Below, piece after piece: positions 9,248 through 63,871 of a stretch of 64,000 nt of DNA (position 1 is its first letter; each line of letters begins with the position of its first letter). Where the stretch lies: assembly GCF_004297265.1 (NCBI RefSeq), contig NZ_SCUT01000009.1, positions 1-64,000 on the forward strand, in the 5' to 3' direction. The notes beneath the pieces were generated by a model. It ran no database searches and was not told where the DNA came from. It saw nothing but the letters and a program-made list of their open reading frames with translations. This DNA is from Reyranella sp. (GTDB taxonomy: Bacteria; Pseudomonadota; Alphaproteobacteria; Reyranellales; Reyranellaceae). A program made the position numbers and the translations under genes.

Positions 9248-9384
9248 GGGCGTCTCTCCTGTGAGCGAGCCCTTGAGTTACTGACGAACCGGATTCTGGG
9301 GATGCAAGCGGGAAGTTTTGGGAAGTGGCCGCGACAGCCTTTTAGGCGATAGCGTTCACCCATGCCCGTTTGCGCATCCAGCAA

Positions 9385-10248
9385 CTAGTTCCTGCGTGCC
9401 GGCCTTTCCGATTCGTCCAGCACGAAGCGAATCGGCACTTTCACTCGTACCGGCTGAGGCTTGCCGTTGACAAGATACGGCTGAAATCGCGCAACCTTCA
9501 CAGCCTCGATCGCCGCCTCATCGAGCGCCGGATGACCGGATGATTTTTCCACGACGATGATGCTCGGAAGACCATTCACATCGACAGTCACGTCGATGAG
9601 GGTCGAGCCCTCGTGTCCCGCCTGCCTGGAACCGGCCGGGTAGACCGGTCGAGGCGGCGCAAGAACAGCCAGGGGCAACGCCGGGTGTGTCGCGGGACTG
9701 GCATTCTGCGGTGCTGGCGTGCGCAACGCAGGAGGCAAGATGCGGCCGCTATATTCCTTGACGCAGGTAGCCAGCCGCTTCGTTGCTTCTTCTACGCCGG
9801 CGAGGTTGACGGTGAAGTTGCGCTGGTTTGCGCTGACCTCCAGCGGTCGATCCGATTTCAGTTCCTCGAAGAACTCGGGCGCCGCTCGGAATGTCATCAA
9901 GGTGGGCGTTCTCGCGGTTCCGATGAAGGTGAAGGTGCGCCCGCCGATGGCGAAGGTGGCCGAATAGGTCTCACCGGCCTTCAATCCCCAGCTCGGAACC
10001 TCGGCAGACATCCCCCGGCTGCCGCTGTACCCTTGACCCAGGTACAGAATGAAGCCGTCGGCAAATATCCGTCGGATTCCGCACCCGTCGAACGCCGGGT
10101 TCGTGCCGCGCGTCGTCGCCCGCAACTGCCAAGGTCCCACCTGAGCGACGGAATCCGGAAAAGTGTCGGCACTGGCAGTTCCCACCGCGATGGGCACAAC
10201 AGCCATGGATATGGCCATCGCCGCACGGCAAATACGCCAGAAAACCAT
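9385..10248 (-). CDS. TonB-domain secreted protein carried inside the prophage
   Basis: I start at the ATG at 10248 because it gives a signal-peptide-like N-terminus (MVFWRICRAAMAISMAVVP... ASA). Residues of about 25-170 resemble a secreted beta domain that recurs in the protein at 57420-57914. The last 80 residues form a TonB C-terminal domain: PVYPAGSRQAGHEGSTLIDV, VDVNGLPSIIVVEKSSGHP, LDEAAIEAV and FQPYLVNGKPQPV. There is no N-terminal membrane anchor after the signal peptide and no long Pro/Lys spacer, so a classical ExbB/ExbD-coupled TonB is doubtful. It lies between terminase and portal and has its own terminator upstream, as phage morons do. Confidence 0.75.
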   Translation of the reverse strand: MVFWRICRAAMAISMAVVPIAVGTASADTFPDSVAQVGPWQLRATTRGTNPAFDGCGIRRIFADGFILYLGQGYSGSRGMSAEVPSWGLKAGETYSATFAIGGRTFTFIGTARTPTLMTFRAAPEFFEELKSDRPLEVSANQRNFTVNLAGVEEATKRLATCVKEYSGRILPPALRTPAPQNASPATHPALPLAVLAPPRPVYPAGSRQAGHEGSTLIDVTVDVNGLPSIIVVEKSSGHPALDEAAIEAVKVARFQPYLVNGKPQPVRVKVPIRFVLDESERPARRN

Positions 10249-10424
10249 CGGATGTCTGATGTCGATCCTCCGCACCGCCGGCCGCAACGGTAGCTTGTTC
10301 GGCCACGGCGGTACAACGACACCCGCAGGATAGTATACAAATCCGGATCCAATGCGGGCATGCCGCATCCGCTGTCGCCACAGTCCGACGGCATCGCCTG
10401 CGGCGCGCCGCCTTGGTCGGAGAA

Positions 10425-10471
10425 CTGAAAAGGCCCGCCGCTCCCTCGGAGACGAGGGGAACGGCGGGCCT
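10425..10471 (-). terminator. Intrinsic terminator after terminase gene
   Basis: Downstream of the terminase stop (10579), the ten-base arms AGGCCCGCCG and CGGCGGGCCT form a hairpin with partly paired interior, and on the coding strand a TTTT run follows. This should stop transcription from the terminase gene before the TonB-domain gene, implying separate expression of the latter. Confidence 0.65.
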
Positions 10472-10578
10472 CCAGACATCGTGTCGGCCGATCGATCGGT
10501 CGCCCGGGATGCCTCCCAAATCGCCTCTTCGTGCGACTGGCCTCGACCATGCCAATGCAGTCTGTGTGAGTCCAGCGC

Positions 10579-12177
10579 TCAGAGATCCGTGTGCGGGTCG
10601 TAGTCGGACTCGATCGTGACGGCGGCCGGCGCGCCCGTCCCGCCGACCGTCACGAACCGTGTCTCCTGCGGCAGATCCGCCACCGGATAGGCGAAGGTGA
10701 GCGCGAGACCGTCGGCATTGTCGGGCGAGGCCAGGCCGCGCTTCTTCATGTCCTCCTTCTTCTCGAGCTGGATCGCGTTATGGAGGTTGAAGCCGTATTC
10801 GCGCCCCGTGAGTTCGGCCAACAGCTCGGGATCGTCGGGGATGGCGCCGGTTTTCAGCCAGGCGCGCATCGACGCCCACATCTCGGCAGCCTTGTTGGCG
10901 GTGAGCGGCATGCCGTCGCCCAGAGTATAGCGATCGGCACGGCCGCCGAAATTGACACCGACGACGAGGTGGCCCCCCAGCATCTGGCGCACGCGGTCGA
11001 CGACACCGGCGCCGATGCCGCCCTCGTCGATGAACACCGCCGTCGCGCGATGCCGGATGGCCTGCTCGGCGACTTTGCCCGACAGGACCATTAAATCACC
11101 GACCCGGAGCTTGATCGCGGGGACAGTGCGCGCGTCACGACCGCGCCGGAACCAGATGGTGCTCTGATCGTCGCCGCCGCGCGCGCAATCGACGCCCATC
11201 ACCAGCGGCTGGCGCAGATGGCCTTCAGCTGGGCGCCGCGCGGCTTCCTCTACCGTCTCGCCGTCGATGAACTGCATGGCGCCCCCTCTCGGAAACTCAC
11301 CTTTCACGCGGACGCGGAAGAAATCGCTGTCGTCGCCATAGTCGGCGGCCCAGCGCGCGATCTCGTCCTTGTCGGTGAGCGAGACCTTGCGACCGTCGAC
11401 CTGGTGCCGCTGCCAGCGATGCCGGAAGCGGCCGAAGCATTCGCGGAAGCGGCCGGTGTTGCGCGTCGGATTGCCGGTAGCCAACCACAGGATCTCGGTG
11501 TTGTGGTCGGTCAGAGCACCCTCGATGGTTTCCCAGACCGGATCGGGAATGGCCGAGGCCTCGTCGAAGGCGACGAACAGGCGCCGGCCCTGGTTGTGCA
11601 GGCCGGCGAAAGCCTCGGTGCTGCGCAGACTCCAGGGCACGGCGTCGATGCGCCAGGTCCGCTCGTGCGCGGGCTGCGTGCTGGCGATGGACGTGGCCCC
11701 GATCTCGAACCAGCCGGCGCAGATAGCCAGCCGCAGCCACTTGGTGAGTTCGGGCCAGGTCTTGGTCTTGAGCTGCGTCGCGGTGTTGGCCGTCACGACC
11801 CCGCGCGTGTCGCGGAAGGTGGCGAGTGCCCAGACGATGATCCACGCCACCAGCGCCGACTTGCCGACACCATGGCCCGAGGCGACGGCGACGCGGATCG
11901 CGGCGGAGGCGCTGTCGAGGGACCGCCCGATCTCCTGAAGCACCTCACGCTGCCACAGCTCAGGCCCCGCGTCCTTCGCCAGCACCGTCCCCGCCTCGCC
12001 CCAGGGGAAGGCGAACAGCACGAAACCAAGCGGATCGTGCGCATAGGTCCCGATCTCGACAGCCAGGGGATCGAGGGCGGCGGCCTGCGAGAAGGATGGG
12101 GAATCCGGAACGTCGGCCACGATCTGGGTTCTGATGGACCGGATTCTGCGTTTGCAAGGAGAAAGCACATCCTCCAA
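10579..12177 (-). CDS. terL: Phage terminase large subunit
   Basis: This packaging motor protein has an ATPase domain with Walker A (ASGHGVGKS, residues 99-107) and Walker B ([12 protein letters not shown]205-E206), a coupling motif (WLATGNPT), and an RNase H-like nuclease domain beginning [12 protein letters not shown] with D330. The start is uncertain: the longest frame opens at TTG 12177 behind GGGGGA, while a GTG at 12120 gives 513 residues beginning [12 protein letters not shown]. Either start lies close to leuC on the other strand. No small terminase subunit gene is found to its right, where one would be expected. Confidence 0.88.
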
Positions 12178-12200
12178 GTTCCCCCAAAGCAGGACAGGTC

Positions 12201-13613
12201 ATGACGGCGCCGTATCCACGCACCCTCTACGACAAGATTTGGGACGCACATGTCGTCGAGCGGCTGGGCGGGCGGACATGCGTGCTCTATGTGGACCGAC
12301 ACCTGCTCGACGAGGTGCACAGCCCGCAGGCCTTCGATGGGTTGCGGCGTGCCGGGCGTCCGGTGCGGCGGCCCGCCGCGACGCTTGCCGTCGTCGATCA
12401 CAATGTCCCCACCGAAGGCCGACGCAACGGTATCACGGAGCCGAAGTCGCGGGCGCAGGTCGCCGCGCTGGAAGCCAATGTCGCGTCGTTCGGCGTGCCC
12501 TACATACCGTTGCTCGACGAACGCCAGGGCATCGTCCACGTGATCGGGCCCGAGCTCGGCTTCTCATTGCCAGGACAGACCATCGTGAGTGGCGATTCTC
12601 ATGCCTCCACGCACGGGGCCTTGGGCGCGCTCGCCTTCGGCGTTGGCGCATCGGAGGTCGAACAGGTACTGGCGACGCAGACGCTGGTGCAAGAGAAGGC
12701 ATGCAACATGAAGGTCGAGGCGACGGGCGGCCTGCCCTTCGGCACCTCGGCCAAGGACCTGGCGCTCGCGATCGTCGGACAGGTCGGCGCGGCGGGCGGC
12801 AGCGGCCATACGATCGAATTCTGCGGAGACACGATTGCGTCGCTCGACATGGCCGGCCGTATGACGGTGAGCAACATGGCGGTCGAGATGGGGGCTCGCG
12901 CGGGCCTGATCGCGCCCGACGAAGCGACCTTCGCCTATGTGCGGGGCCGCGAGCGGGCGCCCGAAGGTGGCGCGCTCGACCACGCCATCCAGTGGTGGCG
13001 TACCCTGCCCTCCGATGCCGGCGCATCGTGGGACCGGGTAACGACGATCGACGCCACACAAATCGCCCCGATGGTGACGTGGGGGACCAACCCCGAGACA
13101 GCACTGGCGATCACCGGCGCCGCGCCCGATCCGGACGACGAGCTCGATCTCCAGCGCCGCACCCAACGCCGGCGCATGCTCGACTATATGGGACTGATAC
13201 CGGGGCAGAAGCTCGCCGGCCTGAAGGTCGATGCCGTCTTCATTGGCTCATGCACCAACGGGCGCCTCGAAGACATCCGCGCTGCCGCGAGCGTGCTACG
13301 AGGCCGCAGGGTGGCGCCCGGCGTGCGAGCGCTTGTCGTTCCAGGATCCGGGCTCGTGAAACGGCAGGCGGAAGAAGAAGGGCTCGACCGCGTGCTCATC
13401 GACGCGGGCTTCGAATGGCGACAGCCTGGCTGCTCGATGTGCCTTGCCATGAACCCGGACCGGTTGTCGCCCGGACAGCGCTGCGCCAGCACGTCGAACC
13501 GCAACTTCGAGGGACGCCAGGGAGCGGCGGCCCGCACCCACCTCGTTTCGCCAGCCATGGCGTCGGCCGCTGCGGTGATGGGCGCCTTGGTCGACGTGCG
13601 GGAGCTGGCCTGA
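12201..13613 (+). CDS. leuC: 3-isopropylmalate dehydratase large subunit
   Basis: This 470-residue protein isomerises 2-isopropylmalate to 3-isopropylmalate in leucine synthesis, using a 4Fe-4S cluster. It shows [38 protein letters not shown] and the cluster cysteines C351 (GSCTNGR), C411 and C414 (CSMC). Length matches the family. AGGACAGGTC precedes the ATG. The small subunit gene leuD, normally adjacent, is not found in this window: the next gene is an unrelated ORF on the opposite strand. It begins 23 bases from the end of the prophage structural module. Confidence 0.92.
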
Positions 13614-57248: not shown

Positions 57249-57419
57249 GGTCTCGCAAGGACAAAGGACCGCTGGCGGCCCGACCAGCGCTATTCCCTGC
57301 CCGCGCCGATGTGCGGACACCCGCGTTTCTTGTGGCCGATGTGATGCGGGAGGGCAACAAGATCCAGCTGCAGCGGCCTGCGAATTCGTGGCATAGGGGC
57401 GCTCTCGGGGGAGGTGACG

Positions 57420-57914: not shown

Positions 57915-57931
57915 AGTTGACCGGAGTCCGA

Positions 57932-59014: not shown

Positions 59015-60022
59015 CTACCCGGACACGAGCCAGTTCAACCTCGTTTCGAAACCGCTCCTTCCCATCGACGACAGGATGTCGTGGTCTTCGACCCCGGGAA
59101 CCGGGTCCAGGTCCACCCCGGGCAGATGCGCCATGTTTTCTGCTTCCTGGCGATCCACTGTGTTCCTCTCGCCAAAGGTCATGCGGACCAAAGGCCGCCG
59201 GTGCGCCCGGCCGTAGAGCGCGGCCATGTCCAGAGAGCCCGGATCGATCGGGGCGGCCGATGGCCGGCGACGCTTCTGCCGTTCGAGGACGCGTTGGGCG
59301 CTTTCGTCCAGCCGGGACGGTCCCGACAGGCTGAGAACCCTCCGTGCGGACAGATCCAGCCCATAGAGAAGGGCGCCGAACGTTCCGGCGGAACTGCCCG
59401 TGCAGAGTATCCGCTCGCCTCCCAGCAGCCGCGCGACCTCGGACAGGCACTCGATCGTATAGTCGTAGCTTGTCCCCAAAGATCCGATGCCGCCCGCGTA
59501 GAACATCCCGTCGTGATCACGAAGATAGACGACGCTCGCATCGAGCCTTCGAAACCACTGGTGCATGAGCACGAGTGGACCGGAAAAGCGCTTGGCCCCG
59601 CCGGTGAAGACGAAAAGCACGCTACGCGATCCCTTGCGGGGCACGATCTGGATTTCCGCCGCCGGATCGTCCTTGAACTCCATCTCGTCCTGGTCTGGAG
59701 GAGTCTCCGGTGCTGCGAGAACGAGCGATGGAAGCTTGCCGGTACTGGTGTCGGCATGTCCGAGAATGTTCGAAACATAGTGTTTCGCCGCCGCCAGGGA
59801 GCCGCATTCGAGGATGGTCCACAATACGACTCTGTGCCTGTACGTCGGCTCGGCGAGCCGCGCGGCGGGCTCACCACGCTCGAAACCGCGCAGGAAATCC
59901 AGGGTTTCCTGGATCAGCAGCCTTTCATTGAGCCATGCGTAGTTCCTGACCTCGGCTTCGACGGCTTCCCTCTCGCCGCCCGCCCAGCGCCTGAGGAGTT
60001 TCCGGGTCTCGTAGGTCAGCAT
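59015..60022 (-). CDS. Alpha/beta hydrolase of the ACP operon
   Basis: This 335-residue protein has a helical N-terminus of about 115 residues (MLTYETRKLLRRWAGGERE) and then an alpha/beta hydrolase region: SVLFVFTGGAKRFSGPLVLM, the nucleophile elbow G209-S-S211-A-G (CTGSSAGTFGALLYGL), D290 and H314 (VEDHDILSSMG) as possible triad partners. The general type resembles Asp2/esterase-like proteins. It overlaps the ACP stop by seven bases (60016-60022), so it is translationally coupled to it and may release or transfer an ACP-bound acyl group. Confidence 0.65.
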   Translation of the reverse strand: MLTYETRKLLRRWAGGEREAVEAEVRNYAWLNERLLIQETLDFLRGFERGEPAARLAEPTYRHRVVLWTILECGSLAAAKHYVSNILGHADTSTGKLPSLVLAAPETPPDQDEMEFKDDPAAEIQIVPRKGSRSVLFVFTGGAKRFSGPLVLMHQWFRRLDASVVYLRDHDGMFYAGGIGSLGTSYDYTIECLSEVARLLGGERILCTGSSAGTFGALLYGLDLSARRVLSLSGPSRLDESAQRVLERQKRRRPSAAPIDPGSLDMAALYGRAHRRPLVRMTFGERNTVDRQEAENMAHLPGVDLDPVPGVEDHDILSSMGRSGFETRLNWLVSG

Positions 60023-60267
60023 GCTTGCCCGACGGGCCTCGCTGCATATTCGATGATCGCCTCGATCGACCTGCAATCGTCGAGGTCGTCCTCCGCGATC
60101 AACACTCCAAAGACTTCCTCGATCCGCATCAGGATCTGGGCGTGATCGAGGGAGTCGAAGCCGAAATCATAGAAATCCTCCGAGGCCTGCAGATCATCCG
60201 TGCAGACTCGCTCCACGACGCCAGCGATGATCTCCCGGACACCCTGCTCGGTCACCTTTATCGACAT
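60016..60267 (-). CDS. Free-standing acyl carrier protein
   Basis: This 83-residue protein has the phosphopantetheine site D38-S39-L40 in DFYDFGFDSLDHAQ and flanking helices (GVREIIAGVVERVCTDDLQA; HAQILMRIEEVFGVLIAEDD). The serine should carry 4'-phosphopantetheine. It is not beside fatty-acid synthase genes but in an operon with an ATP-grasp ligase and a hydrolase. The stop overlaps the hydrolase start. The gap to the 197-residue gene upstream is 32 bases. Confidence 0.88.
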   Translation of the reverse strand: MSIKVTEQGVREIIAGVVERVCTDDLQASEDFYDFGFDSLDHAQILMRIEEVFGVLIAEDDLDDCRSIEAIIEYAARPVGQAC

Positions 60268-60299
60268 CCCCTCTCCTTGGGTGCGCTATCAAACAATCT

Positions 60300-60893
60300 T
60301 CAGCGACGCGGCTGCCCTCGCGCAAGAAGTATCGTGCCGCCGCCATCTCCCTCCACCGTTCGCGCGGTCGCCTTCCAGTAGCGACCGCCCAGAAGCCGGC
60401 GAAGCGTCAACGAAGCGGGAGCGCGATGGGGCGGCAGCCGGGCGCAGGAGATCTCGGCGATCGTCCAGTAGTCATCCGGACAACTGCACTGCAGAAGATG
60501 CACGCTGGCAGCTGCGACACGCCGCATGAATGGCGCCCCTCCCGTGGGTATCGACGCGCTGTCGCCGGCAAAAATCGCACCTTCGACCAACGAGGACTCG
60601 TCGAGGGGCAACCGCTCCTGAATCGGCATGTCCCGGCGGCGGCGCAGGTGAAGCCGCCGGCGAACACCGTCGTCGAGATAGCTCACGGATCCGCAGATAT
60701 CCGCAGACGCGCAAGGCTCCGCGTCATCCCCGCAGACCTCGATGGCGCAGTCGCTTGCCACGGTCAGCGTGAGCCTGACGTCGGCCGCGGCCGCACCGAT
60801 CCGGCGCACGATGCCGTCGAAGATATCGGCCCCGTGAAGATAGGTCCGGTCGGCCGTGAACGGCGGCTCGAGGATGAAGGGCTGCAATGCCAT
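60300..60893 (-). CDS. Unknown protein of the ACP operon
   Basis: From ATG 60893, this 197-residue protein begins MALQPFILEPPFTADRTYLHGADIF... and has VRLTLTVASDCAIEVCGDDA, CASADICGSVSYLDDGVRRR and VAAASVHLLQCSCPDDYWTI. It has several cysteines and a mixed alpha/beta pattern that I cannot assign; the LHGADIFDGIV opening loosely recalls hot-dog or acyltransferase substrate-binding domains. The gene starts seven bases after the ATP-grasp stop. It is probably a dedicated partner of the ACP. Confidence 0.55.
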   Translation of the reverse strand: MALQPFILEPPFTADRTYLHGADIFDGIVRRIGAAAADVRLTLTVASDCAIEVCGDDAEPCASADICGSVSYLDDGVRRRLHLRRRRDMPIQERLPLDESSLVEGAIFAGDSASIPTGGAPFMRRVAAASVHLLQCSCPDDYWTIAEISCARLPPHRAPASLTLRRLLGGRYWKATARTVEGDGGGTILLARGQPRR

Positions 60894-60900
60894 CGGATAC

Positions 60901-62085
60901 CTAGGTCGCAACGACGTGCGGAACGAACCGGCTGTATTCGTCGAAGATGATCGGTCCGTCGGACTCGAGGATTCCGATCCCTTCGACCGCGCCTCCCACG
61001 ATCCAGCTCATGACGGACGCATGCCTCGTCTGCGTGGCACTCCGGAAGGTCGGCAACCGGTGAAGCGCCTGAACGACCCAGCCTTCACGCCCGTAAGGCC
61101 CGGGCGTCGACAGGCCGCCGGCGGGAAGGGTCTGGTCCCTCAACGTCACATTGTGCCCCTTGATGGAGAACAGGGGCTTGACGACGCAGTTGCCGGTAGG
61201 CGCCGCCGGATCGCCGGAAAACCAGGCGGGGAGCAGGTTGGGATGGCCGGGAAACAGCCGCCATAGCCACACCAGGATTCCCTTGGAGGCCAGAACCAGC
61301 TTCCACAGCGGTTCGATGACGCCGGGCGAACCGGCCGCGAGGAAATTTCGTCCATAGGGTTCGCGCAGCAGGACGTTCCAGCGATAGGCCTTGACCAGCG
61401 AACGGATCGGCAGACCGTCGGCATCGACCAGAAACCCGCTCCCGTTCAGCCGGATTGCCTCGAGGTCGACATAGCGCGCGTCATGGCCGGCCTGCGTGGC
61501 ACAGTCCTGCAGGTAGCGAGCCCAGATCTGGTCCTCGACGTTGCGCAGCGACGCGGCCATGTGGAGCGGCCGGGCCATTGTATCGCCGAGCCTGTGGAAC
61601 GAACCCACCAGCGCCTCGTGCAGATGGTTGAACTGGTCGTAGCTGGCAGGCAGGTCGCCGTCGCGTTGCCGATCCTCCAGCCAGATCCACTGGAACACGG
61701 CCGCCTCGAAGAGCGTACCGGCCGTATCGGCGTTGCACTCATGGAGTTTGGCGGGATGGAGACCGTCGAAGGCCAGGTCGAAGCGCGCCAGAAGGTCCGG
61801 GTCGCTGCGGCGCCAGCTCTCGCTCAGGGCACCCCAGCAGGTTTCGGGAATGCCGAGGGACCGCAGGATTTCGTCGTCGCGACTGGCGCGGTCAACGACC
61901 TGCAGGCAGAGATCCCAGAGTTCCGTCGACGCGGCCTCCACGAGACGTTCGATGCAGCCCGCCTCTAAGAGATAGTAGGCATCGTCCGTCCAATACGGCG
62001 ACTTGGCTGTGGTGTGGTAGCGAAAGCCGGTCTGCTCGGCCAGATCCCGCCAGTCGGGCCGTTCGGCGATTGCGAGGCGCTGCAC
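60901..62085 (-). CDS. Glutathionylspermidine-synthase-like ATP-grasp ligase
   Basis: This 394-residue protein from GTG 62085 resembles the C-terminal amide-bond-forming half of glutathionylspermidine synthase: RYHTTAKSPYWTDDAYYLLE, LARFDLAFDGLHPAKLHECN with NADTAGTLFEAAVFQWIWLE, ARYVDLEAIRLNGSGFLVDA, and NCVVKPLFSIKGHNVTLRDQ. In the family these regions bind ATP, Mg and the acceptor. The amidase half is absent. In this operon it sits with an ACP, so the acceptor might be ACP-bound rather than glutathione. The acceptor assignment is inference. Confidence 0.7.
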   Translation of the reverse strand: MQRLAIAERPDWRDLAEQTGFRYHTTAKSPYWTDDAYYLLEAGCIERLVEAASTELWDLCLQVVDRASRDDEILRSLGIPETCWGALSESWRRSDPDLLARFDLAFDGLHPAKLHECNADTAGTLFEAAVFQWIWLEDRQRDGDLPASYDQFNHLHEALVGSFHRLGDTMARPLHMAASLRNVEDQIWARYLQDCATQAGHDARYVDLEAIRLNGSGFLVDADGLPIRSLVKAYRWNVLLREPYGRNFLAAGSPGVIEPLWKLVLASKGILVWLWRLFPGHPNLLPAWFSGDPAAPTGNCVVKPLFSIKGHNVTLRDQTLPAGGLSTPGPYGREGWVVQALHRLPTFRSATQTRHASVMSWIVGGAVEGIGILESDGPIIFDEYSRFVPHVVAT

Positions 62086-62100
62086 GGTGGCGATCTTCGA

Positions 62101-62355
62101 CTAGTCTGACAGATCGCTATCGAGCATCGTGTCGCCAAAGAGCCCCAGACCCCGGGCATGAGAAGGACCCACCGGATGAGCGGATGGGACTGTCCCGGCT
62201 GGTGTCCGGGCCGCGGCGACATCGGACAAGCTCGGGAAACCGGCCCGATGCACTCCTCCGTCTTCTCCGCGCGCGACCCGGAAATAGGGTTGGTCGACCA
62301 TGAGGACGAGTGCGATCGCTCCGGAACGGCGCAGAGGGGCGGCGTTCCGCGCCAA
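62101..62355 (-). CDS. Small ORF at the head of the ACP operon
   Basis: From a TTG at 62355 with a strong AAGGAG eight bases upstream, this 84-residue protein reads LARNAAPLRRSGAIALVLMV, then PYFRVARGEDGGVHRAGFPS and ends LGLFGDTMLDSDLSD. The stop lies 16 bases before the ATP-grasp start. Codon third-position GC is only moderately high, so coding status is uncertain. It could be a peptide substrate of the ligase or an independent small protein. Confidence 0.4.
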   Translation of the reverse strand: MARNAAPLRRSGAIALVLMVDQPYFRVARGEDGGVHRAGFPSLSDVAAARTPAGTVPSAHPVGPSHARGLGLFGDTMLDSDLSD

Positions 62356-62654
62356 TCCGTCTGCTCCTTCGGACTGCCCTCGCCGTTCCATGGATGCTCC
62401 GCACTCAAGCCCGAAAAGGCACACTCGAACTGCGGAAACCATACCGGGTGCTTTTTACACCTTCAAGTTATGACTCTTCGCTCAGCGGCCTCGCCCCCTC
62501 TCGATCGCATCGCCGGCCGACGCGATCGTGGCGACGGCGGGCACCCCTTTTTCCTTTCGTTTGATTCGGGTATCCCACTTAATTCGACTATTTTGGATAT
62601 TTCGTTTATTGTCGGGCGCCTTCTGACGCAGCCGGCAACCGCATGGAGATGACG

Positions 62655-63101
62655 ATGCCCGTCGACGGATCTCTTTCCGAGCGCCTCCCGACACCTGACG
62701 AAGCCGAGAAGGCCAGGACGGCGAGCACGCTCCTGGCGCGCCACAGGGACAGGCGGGGCGGCCTGTCGCTCCGCGTCAGGAAGGGCGCCAAGGACGCCAC
62801 CGTGGAGCTTCCACCGGCGATCAGCCACCTGGTGCTCGACCTCCTGCTGGCCGTCGGCAAGGGCGAAGCGGTCGCGCTCGTGCCGTTCGGCGGGGATCTT
62901 TCCACCCAGCAGGCGGCCGACATGCTCCAGGTCTCCCGGCCCTTCCTCGTGAAGCTGATCGAGAACAAGGAGATCCCGTACCACAAGGTCGGCACCCATC
63001 GGCGCATCCGGGCACAAGACGTGTTCGCCTACAGGCAACGCCGCGACCGGACGCGCAACGACGCGCTGACCCGGCTCGCCCGGCTGAAGCAGGAGGTCTA
63101 G
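62655..63101 (+). CDS. Excisionase-type HTH DNA-binding protein
   Basis: From ATG 62655 (GGAG upstream) this 148-residue protein carries a helix-turn-helix of the excisionase/MerR-like kind in its C-terminal half: LSTQQAADMLQVSRPFLVKL, IENKEIPYHKVGTHRRIRAQ. The family often acts as the antitoxin in toxin-antitoxin pairs with PIN-domain RNases, but no PIN gene follows it. It may be an orphan antitoxin or a free regulator. Confidence 0.75.
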   Translation: MPVDGSLSERLPTPDEAEKARTASTLLARHRDRRGGLSLRVRKGAKDATVELPPAISHLVLDLLLAVGKGEAVALVPFGGDLSTQQAADMLQVSRPFLVKLIENKEIPYHKVGTHRRIRAQDVFAYRQRRDRTRNDALTRLARLKQEV

Positions 63102-63169: not shown

Positions 63170-63871
63170 ATGTGTGGGAAGTTCACGGCGCAGGCCGCGT
63201 GGCGCGAAGTCGTCGCCTTCTCGCAGCCACTGACCGGTGAAAGTGGCGGCGGTGATGCCGAGGGCGGTGGAGACGAGATCGTCACCTACCGAGTCGGCGG
63301 GCCCTTGCCGGTCATCATCCGGGATCGCGAGGCGGGCAGGCGCCGCGTCGTGCCGATGCGCTGGGGCTTCCCTGCGCCGAAGGACTGGCGCCGGCCGCAG
63401 CCGATCCATGCGCGTTCGGAGACGATCGACGAGCTTCGCACCTTCAGGACGGCCTTCGAGACCGGGCAGCGCGGCATCGTCCTGTTCCGGACCTTCAACG
63501 AAGGCGAGGAGATCCTGAAGGAGGGCCGCAAGCCCCAGACGAAGCAATGGACGGTCGATCCCCGGGACGGCCGCCCGCGCGGCTTCGCTTTCCTGTGGCG
63601 CGAATTCGAGATCCCGGACCTGCCGATGCCGATGCGGGCCTGCGTCATGGTCACCGTGCCGGCCAACGAGCTGATCCGCCGGACCATCAAGTCCCTGGAG
63701 GAGGACCCGCGAATGCCGGCGATCCTGGAGGACGACGTCTGGGCGACCTGGCTGGGTGAGGACGGCGCCTCGCCGGCCGAAGCCAAGGCCCTGCTTCGGA
63801 CGATGGAAGGCGTGAACTGGACGGCGGCGCCCGAGCCGAAAAAGCCAAAGCCCGCCGCGCCACGCCCATAG
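63170..63871 (+). CDS. SRAP (YedK/HMCES) family protein with atypical active site
   Basis: This 233-residue protein begins MCGKFTAQAAW, conserving the catalytic Cys2 that crosslinks abasic DNA sites. Typical active-site residues are altered: H80 (PIHARSET) stands where Asn is expected, and D179 (EDPRMP) where His is expected; E111 (FNEGEE) is retained. The middle has an inserted Gly/Asp-rich segment (residues 24-36). The C-terminal tail is Lys/Pro-rich. It may retain DNA-protein crosslinking with altered reversal. Confidence 0.85.
   Translation: MCGKFTAQAAWREVVAFSQPLTGESGGGDAEGGGDEIVTYRVGGPLPVIIRDREAGRRRVVPMRWGFPAPKDWRRPQPIHARSETIDELRTFRTAFETGQRGIVLFRTFNEGEEILKEGRKPQTKQWTVDPRDGRPRGFAFLWREFEIPDLPMPMRACVMVTVPANELIRRTIKSLEEDPRMPAILEDDVWATWLGEDGASPAEAKALLRTMEGVNWTAAPEPKKPKPAAPRP

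Follow-up and report, generated by a model that had tools for sequence, protein, structure and literature searches.

A carrier-protein gene cassette of Reyranella and Stella combining a diverged GspS-family ATP-grasp ligase, a predicted double-hotdog protein and a putative alpha/beta hydrolase

What does an ATP-grasp ligase related to glutathionylspermidine synthetase (GspS) do beside a free acyl carrier protein (ACP)? This question is raised by a stretch of 64,000 nucleotides from Reyranella sp. (contig NZ_SCUT01000009.1, positions 1 to 64,000; hereafter the window, from genome G000). Its minus strand carries, from 62085 down to 59015, four head-to-tail genes encoding an ATP-grasp ligase, a predicted double-hotdog protein, an ACP and a putative alpha/beta hydrolase. 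An earlier note on this DNA had described a minus-strand operon at this place, and the gene order and tight spacing are borne out: 7 bases separate the ligase and hotdog genes, 32 bases the hotdog and ACP genes, and the ACP and hydrolase genes overlap by 7 bases. The reading which we put first, tentatively and with somewhat less than even confidence in the chain as a whole, is that one carboxylic (perhaps amino) acid is loaded onto a free carrier, handled there and then released by the products of the cassette. Carrier-bound chemistry performed by a three-gene core (hotdog protein, ACP and hydrolase) is likelier than this whole chain.

The ligase matches PF03738 (GSP_synth), which is present in 38 of the 65 genomes of the genus, over the complete profile (positions 1-371 of 371; 2.1e-106, 356.7 bits versus a cut-off of 29.3). 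It consists of the synthetase half alone, the N-terminal amidase half being absent, as the earlier note had said. By the tests made, it is not a bifunctional GspS on sequence grounds: the corresponding equivalog NF007801 yields 108 bits versus a cut-off of 882. Its nearest PDB entries are YgiC (7uk8, 308.5 bits, 7.3e-91) and YjfC (7uk6, 273.6 bits), those of TryS and GspS matching far more weakly (83 and 82 bits). In a tree of 55 ligase rows, the three full-length cassette ligases (from the window and from Stella genomes G256 and G816) form one clade (100/100) with the lone G416 enzyme as its sister (100/99), and the canonical copies of Stella and Reyranella fall elsewhere. Judged in this way, the cassette ligase is a diverged clade within PF03738.

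Six GspS positions to which we presumptively ascribe catalytic roles (R316, D318, E330, N332, K498 and K533) are kept in the window ligase as R101, D103, E116, N118, K268 and K303; these residues are shared by every full-length cassette ligase (three in all) and by 94% or more of the 50 canonical rows. Two other positions, R538 and R598 of GspS, are occupied by I308 and L373 (P0001 numbering), the residues in the window, G816 and G256 ligases being I/V/N and L/L/M, respectively, and those in the partial ligase of G058 Ile and Leu. Arginine stands at both positions in all 50 canonical rows and in the sister G416, as well as in GspS, TryS, YgiC and YjfC; this is a conserved feature of the relatives examined and not a curated criterion of PF03738. 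New invariants of the cassette clade include H115, C117, G123, W188 and R235. Because two active-site arginines of its relatives are lost, the chemistry of the ligase has probably changed.

The ACP matches PF00550 (7.9e-14, 52.1 bits versus a cut-off of 20.8) and carries the phosphopantetheine DSL site at Ser39, with D38, S39 and D41 invariant in seven rows, which agrees with the free ACP with an intact site proposed earlier. For the equivalog of fatty-acid-synthesis ACP, TIGR00517, it scores 36.7 bits versus 70.45. We scanned 54 ATP-grasp loci with the ACP profile (56 were fetched; the window and the G058 fragment were excluded, and one G051 gene is counted twice). An ACP was present in the flanks (about 1.5 kb per side) of two loci, both of them cassettes, and the sister ligase of G416 is among the 52 loci lacking one. 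An altered active site in just the ACP-joined branch suggests that the substrate or the nucleophile has changed, the main alternative being that ligase activity was lost.

Six cassettes were found, three in Reyranella and three in Stella, with the ligase present in four and missing from two (one per genus). The order ligase-hotdog-ACP-hydrolase is common to the window and to Stella G256 and G816, and in Reyranella G058 the ligase is cut by a contig end. Reyranella G066 has hotdog, ACP and hydrolase genes without the ligase and no PF03738 match anywhere in its genome. In Stella G815, this trio stands at the chromosomal site of the G256 cassette (from the LysR side to an rnk-like gene, named by eye), and the sole match to P0001 in that genome is a canonical copy elsewhere. 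This is why we distinguish a three-gene core from a facultative ligase; the carrier serine and the hydrolase triad are intact in all six cassettes. The co-conservation of ACP and ligase, for which the earlier note had called, is therefore mixed. In the fourth Stella genome (G817), neither the hotdog nor the cassette ligase was detected, and at the Reyranella site of G018 nothing of the cassette remains but the 3' end of its hydrolase gene.

Strong hotdog matches occur in G000, G058 and G066 among 76 genomes of the order, in at least three of 385 genomes of the class (G000, G066 and G256), and in three of the four Stella genomes. Most genome searches scored the best few candidates per genome (at most eight for the class-wide hotdog search, five for the hydrolase and four in another), so that absences carry little weight and counts are minimum values; the Stella hotdog search scored all candidates. 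We left out of the count the weak class-wide hotdog matches of five genomes (E 0.003-0.01), and weak matches to the C-terminal part of the hotdog protein (P0002) in G039 and G030, situated among ribosomal-protein genes, were dropped as chance.

Since the gene order recurs in relatives and the ratios of nonsynonymous to synonymous substitution rates (dN/dS) for the core between G000 and G066 are 0.22-0.31 (hotdog 0.31, ACP 0.22, hydrolase 0.26; flanking nhaA 0.17 and the gene at 57917 0.23), the gene set goes beyond chance. Core proteins are 39-53% identical between the genera, and the order is kept in G816 and G256 in unrelated surroundings. The cassette proteins of Stella G256 share 44-64% identity with those of G815, less than the flanking LysR (92%), TrxB (88%) and Rnk (72%), which implies that the Stella cassettes diverge fast or were exchanged, silent sites being near saturation. 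Such divergence may reflect selection or an older separation, which these saturated sites do not distinguish. In the tree, a deep split separates G066 from G815, with weakly supported branching within Stella (5.4/45), and the ligase-less cassettes may represent two losses or a gain of the ligase elsewhere by transfer.

The second cassette gene had been read as encoding an unknown cysteine-rich protein. The gene stands, but the trait does not: the window copy has seven cysteines in 197 residues and only one Cys is invariant over six relatives, so that we rejected cysteine richness as a family character. Pfam (E up to 10) gave no match for any of the six relatives, PDB none for the family by sequence, and NCBIfam none for the copy in the window. 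The AlphaFold2 model (predicted local distance difference test, pLDDT, 83.7; predicted template modelling score, pTM, 0.83) is a double hotdog, and the protein is predicted to belong to the double-hotdog superfamily, with two hotdog halves in one chain. Acyl-ACP/CoA thioesterases and dehydratases rank top both in Foldseek (best 1.5e-5) and in VIA-align, where the model superimposes on the polyketide synthase dehydratase 5hst_A (Z 10.8, root-mean-square deviation (rmsd) 3.4, 177 aligned) and on TesB 4r9z_A (Z 10.7, rmsd 3.5, 166 aligned). By eye, Pro17 and Arg131 (P0002) stand where the dehydratase motifs have His and Asp, respectively, which we regard as a lead.

The cassette hydrolase has no family match in Pfam or NCBIfam and no PDB match by sequence, although its model (pLDDT 74.9, with a helical N-terminal region) aligns with alpha/beta hydrolases (Foldseek 2.5e-6; VIA Z 15.3, rmsd 4.1, 195 aligned). 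An alpha/beta hydrolase fold with a conserved Ser-Asp-His triad is thus predicted, in line with the earlier assignment; the putative triad residues S211, D290 and H314 (335-residue form) are invariant in seven aligned rows. Single relatives of the hydrolase give weak NCBIfam matches, including Asp2 and XcbB/CpsF (E 0.007-0.08). Gap123 (6oyc_B), among the VIA structure matches, is in line with the Asp2 lead, Gap2 and Asp2 being related proteins.

Outside the cassettes, at least 17 relatives of the hydrolase were found at E<=0.001 (the G018 remnant excluded), and a PF00550 match lies within 2 kb of five of them (G256 at 5267073, G320, G337, G410 contig 157 and G531), as compared with 0.11 expected (P about 6e-8 if placement is uniform). 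In four of these five, the ACP gene immediately precedes the hydrolase gene in the same orientation; the carrier of G320 lies 1.4 kb downstream. A set of overlapping genes in G337 (L126) comprises an AMP-binding ligase (the first gene), an ACP and the hydrolase. Stella G256 has, at another locus (L123), an AMP-binding ligase that stands divergently about 1 kb from the ACP-hydrolase pair, and the two ligases are 39% identical. The G320 cluster includes a ketosynthase and an AMP-binding/PP-binding protein, by eye a fatty-acyl-AMP ligase. No ligase was identified alongside the pairs of G531 and G410; the reading frame before the G410 pair, by eye a P450, has no Pfam match and was not used. A carboxylate activator beside the pair therefore recurs, considering the AMP-forming ligases in G337 and Stella G256, and together with G320 these arrangements suggest that the ATP-grasp ligase fills the place taken by an AMP-binding ligase in some relatives. 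Compact ACP-hydrolase pairs outside the cassettes in genomes of the class (L126 4702-7414, L123 7065-10751, L091 9416-10715 and L127 7689-8847), two of them with an AMP-binding ligase nearby, look like a small uncharacterised family of carrier-protein modules.

How could these proteins work together? We suppose that a phosphopantetheinyl transferase of the host primes Ser39 of the ACP. The ATP-grasp ligase would then convert a carboxylate into an acyl phosphate, the intermediate proposed for GspS, and pass the acyl group to the ACP thiol, or alternatively cap the ACP-bound unit; this step is suggested by the position of the gene, its dedicated clade and its changed active site. The predicted double-hotdog protein may act on, or shelter, the acyl-S-ACP. 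Finally, the hydrolase, for which the fold is predicted and the triad conserved, would free the unit as a thioesterase or move it to an acceptor. In this chain the ATP-grasp ligase is probably a dispensable loader, and as the ligase can be missing, loading in G066 and G815 must come from another enzyme.

Several observations weigh against this scheme of loading, handling and release. The absence of the ligase from two of six cassettes weakens a required loader role, and the loss of the two arginines could mean that ligase activity was lost. No carrier was found within 2 kb of twelve of the 17 hydrolase relatives, among them two further ones in Stella; for at least three of the twelve (G410 contig 88, G700 and G097), a contig end is less than 2 kb away. 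The structure models of the hotdog and hydrolase proteins were built from alignments of only four sequences. The idea of the earlier note that an ATP-grasp enzyme acts here on an ACP is partly supported: it gains from the restriction, among the loci scanned, of flanking ACPs to cassette ligases and from the recurrent carboxylate activator, and loses from the ligase-less cassettes. A more far-reaching version, which we consider conceivable but unlikely, is that a GspS-fold ATP-grasp enzyme has given up the free amine as nucleophile for the phosphopantetheine thiol on an ACP of its own and so become an acid:carrier-protein ligase. The arginine loss would mark this switch, and the enzyme would work with a hotdog protein whose chemistry is new, the four genes forming a pathway complete in itself.

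The best surviving alternative, although in our opinion still rather unlikely, is that the ACP receives its acyl group from housekeeping fatty acid synthesis or from another ligase, that the hotdog protein and hydrolase process this acyl-ACP, and that the ATP-grasp enzyme performs an optional late step in which the released acid is coupled to an amine, as by the acid-amine ligase GspS. In its favour, G066 and G815 keep an intact core although they have no cassette ligase; PDB labels YgiC and YjfC as putative acid--amine ligases, and the top-ranking structural matches of the hotdog model are enzymes of acyl-ACP/CoA. However, the absence of equivalents of R538 and R598 would be odd if the acid-amine reaction had been kept, and the ligase gene stands first in the cassette, like the AMP-binding ligase gene in G337.

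We regard as distinctly improbable a second alternative, in which the cassette ATP-grasp protein is degenerate (dead or regulatory) and being lost, leaving hotdog, ACP and hydrolase as the working unit. The disappearance of two arginines found in all canonical rows, the two ligase-less cassettes and the reduced locus of G018 fit this possibility, but none of the six presumed catalytic positions varies among the three full cassette ligases and the gene is retained in four cassettes of two genera. Moreover, between G000 and G058 the C-terminal part of the ligase has a dN/dS of 0.16, as compared with 0.26 for the hotdog, 0.14 for the ACP and 0.29 for the hydrolase.

A glutathione/polyamine pathway of the GspS or TryS kind with the ACP as a bystander, suggested by membership of PF03738, is very improbable and was rejected on the equivalog score, the missing amidase half, the missing arginines and the ACP linkage, which among the loci scanned is unique to the cassette clade; in the absence of two arginines that GspS, TryS, YgiC and YjfC all carry, use of glutathione and spermidine appears unlikely from sequence. 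A chance neighbourhood without joint function would suit the rarity of the cassette, but is hardly credible and was rejected given the order, strand and tight spacing kept across two genera at this protein divergence and, in Stella, in unrelated surroundings.

The cassette can be compared with several known systems. E. coli YgiC and YjfC share with its ligase full-length homology, PF03738 without an amidase half and the six presumed catalytic positions, whereas the cassette clade differs in lacking Arg at 308 and 373, in its new invariants and in the adjoining ACP. E. coli GspS and trypanosomatid TryS share the ATP-grasp core with equivalents of the same six residues, while the cassette ligase lacks their amidase domain and the two arginines and falls far below the GspS equivalog. 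In butirosin biosynthesis, the ATP-grasp enzyme BtrJ loads the ACP BtrI, and the cassette likewise has an ATP-grasp ligase adjoining a free ACP; BtrJ presumably belongs to a different ATP-grasp family, and its partners are the butirosin side-chain enzymes instead of a double hotdog and an alpha/beta hydrolase. The sets of G337 and Stella G256 have a free ACP followed by a relative of the hydrolase (hhalign probability 97.9 and 98.7), but differ in having an AMP-binding ligase, divergent in Stella, and no hotdog relative was seen in them.

For GspS it was proposed, with structural support, that glutathione is activated at its glycine carboxylate to give an acyl phosphate, followed by attack of an amine (PMC2702004). 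Seryl-tRNA-synthetase-like amino acid:carrier protein ligases have been described, and the attachment of a peptide to an ACP likened to butirosin biosynthesis (PMC2922099). Like the cassette, these ligases provide a dedicated loader outside nonribosomal peptide synthetases beside a free carrier; they differ in being a class-II synthetase and not an ATP-grasp enzyme, and the part of that paper considered here mentions no hotdog protein. By analogy, the cassette resembles systems for carrier-bound building blocks with a dedicated loader. Caution in reading co-location as function is advised by the azaserine cluster, in which the ATP-grasp gene azsJ lies by carrier protein genes and is thought by the authors to be uninvolved (PMC10445470). 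In the open-access literature, we found no published precedent for a GspS-like ligase paired with an ACP.

YgiC/YjfC-type ligases are common, and a branch tied to one small carrier offers a handle on their chemistry. The product of the cassette should stay on a protein of 83 residues, readable by mass spectrometry. Two families also come to light through the cassette, one of double-hotdog proteins for which Pfam has no model and one of hydrolases recurring beside free carriers. To our knowledge, no substrate has been established for ligases of the YgiC/YjfC type.

Table 1. Genes of the cassette and the reading frame upstream of it (window positions).
Feature	Position	Strand	Details
YgiC/YjfC-type ATP-grasp ligase	60901..62085	-	394 aa; GTG 62085, stop 60901
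Predicted double-hotdog protein	60300..60893	-	197 aa from ATG 60893; frame open to TTG 60911
Free ACP	60016..60267	-	83 aa; ATG 60267, stop 60016
Putative alpha/beta hydrolase	59015..60022	-	335 aa; ATG 60022; frame open to TTG 60076
Small upstream open reading frame	62101..62355	-	84 aa; TTG 62355; no family, weak codon signal

The small frame upstream of the ligase (Table 1), which the earlier note had counted as the first gene of the operon, was rejected as a cassette member and is probably no gene, lying outside the cassette unit. It had no family match (a slightly longer frame being used as the query) and no tblastn match at E<=1 among the examined loci of other genomes, and the GC content at its third codon positions is 0.67 versus 0.76-0.81 across the four cassette genes. 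As to the suggestion that no synthetase gene is nearby, only one of the seven PF00550 matches of the genome, the cassette ACP itself, lies on the 132-kb contig, ketosynthases never having been searched for. The sole PF14765 match of the genome is on a different contig. Elsewhere in G000, outside the window, contig C10 (about 9258-13472, L120) has an open frame of 2514 aa with PS-DH and PP-binding matches, probably a polyketide synthase. A promoter scan found none, and terminator counts are approximately at shuffle level.

Some minor observations concern the surroundings of the cassettes. In Stella G256 and G815, about 100 bp between LysR and the cassette (L050 10553-10654 and L097 10448-10549) are nearly identical, exceeding the rest of the aligned region (84%), with a terminator-like hairpin and a T run at the end; by eye the stretch resembles a structured RNA, but there is no Rfam match at the gathering threshold; it is possibly an unannotated small RNA. 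Upstream of the window cassette, a stretch of 55-59 bp (62492-62549) has a single partner of about 80% identity in each of two other Reyranella genomes, G018 (L045) and G066 (L044/L053), and is perhaps a repeat. An HTH_17 gene (62643-63101) is followed by a gene for an SRAP (SOS-response-associated) peptidase at 63170-63871 on the plus strand. On the other side of the cassette, the nhaA-I RNA motif RF03057 (56 bits) occupies 57270-57322 of the minus strand, directly before an NhaA-like antiporter gene, named by eye and from this motif, which is also present in L044.

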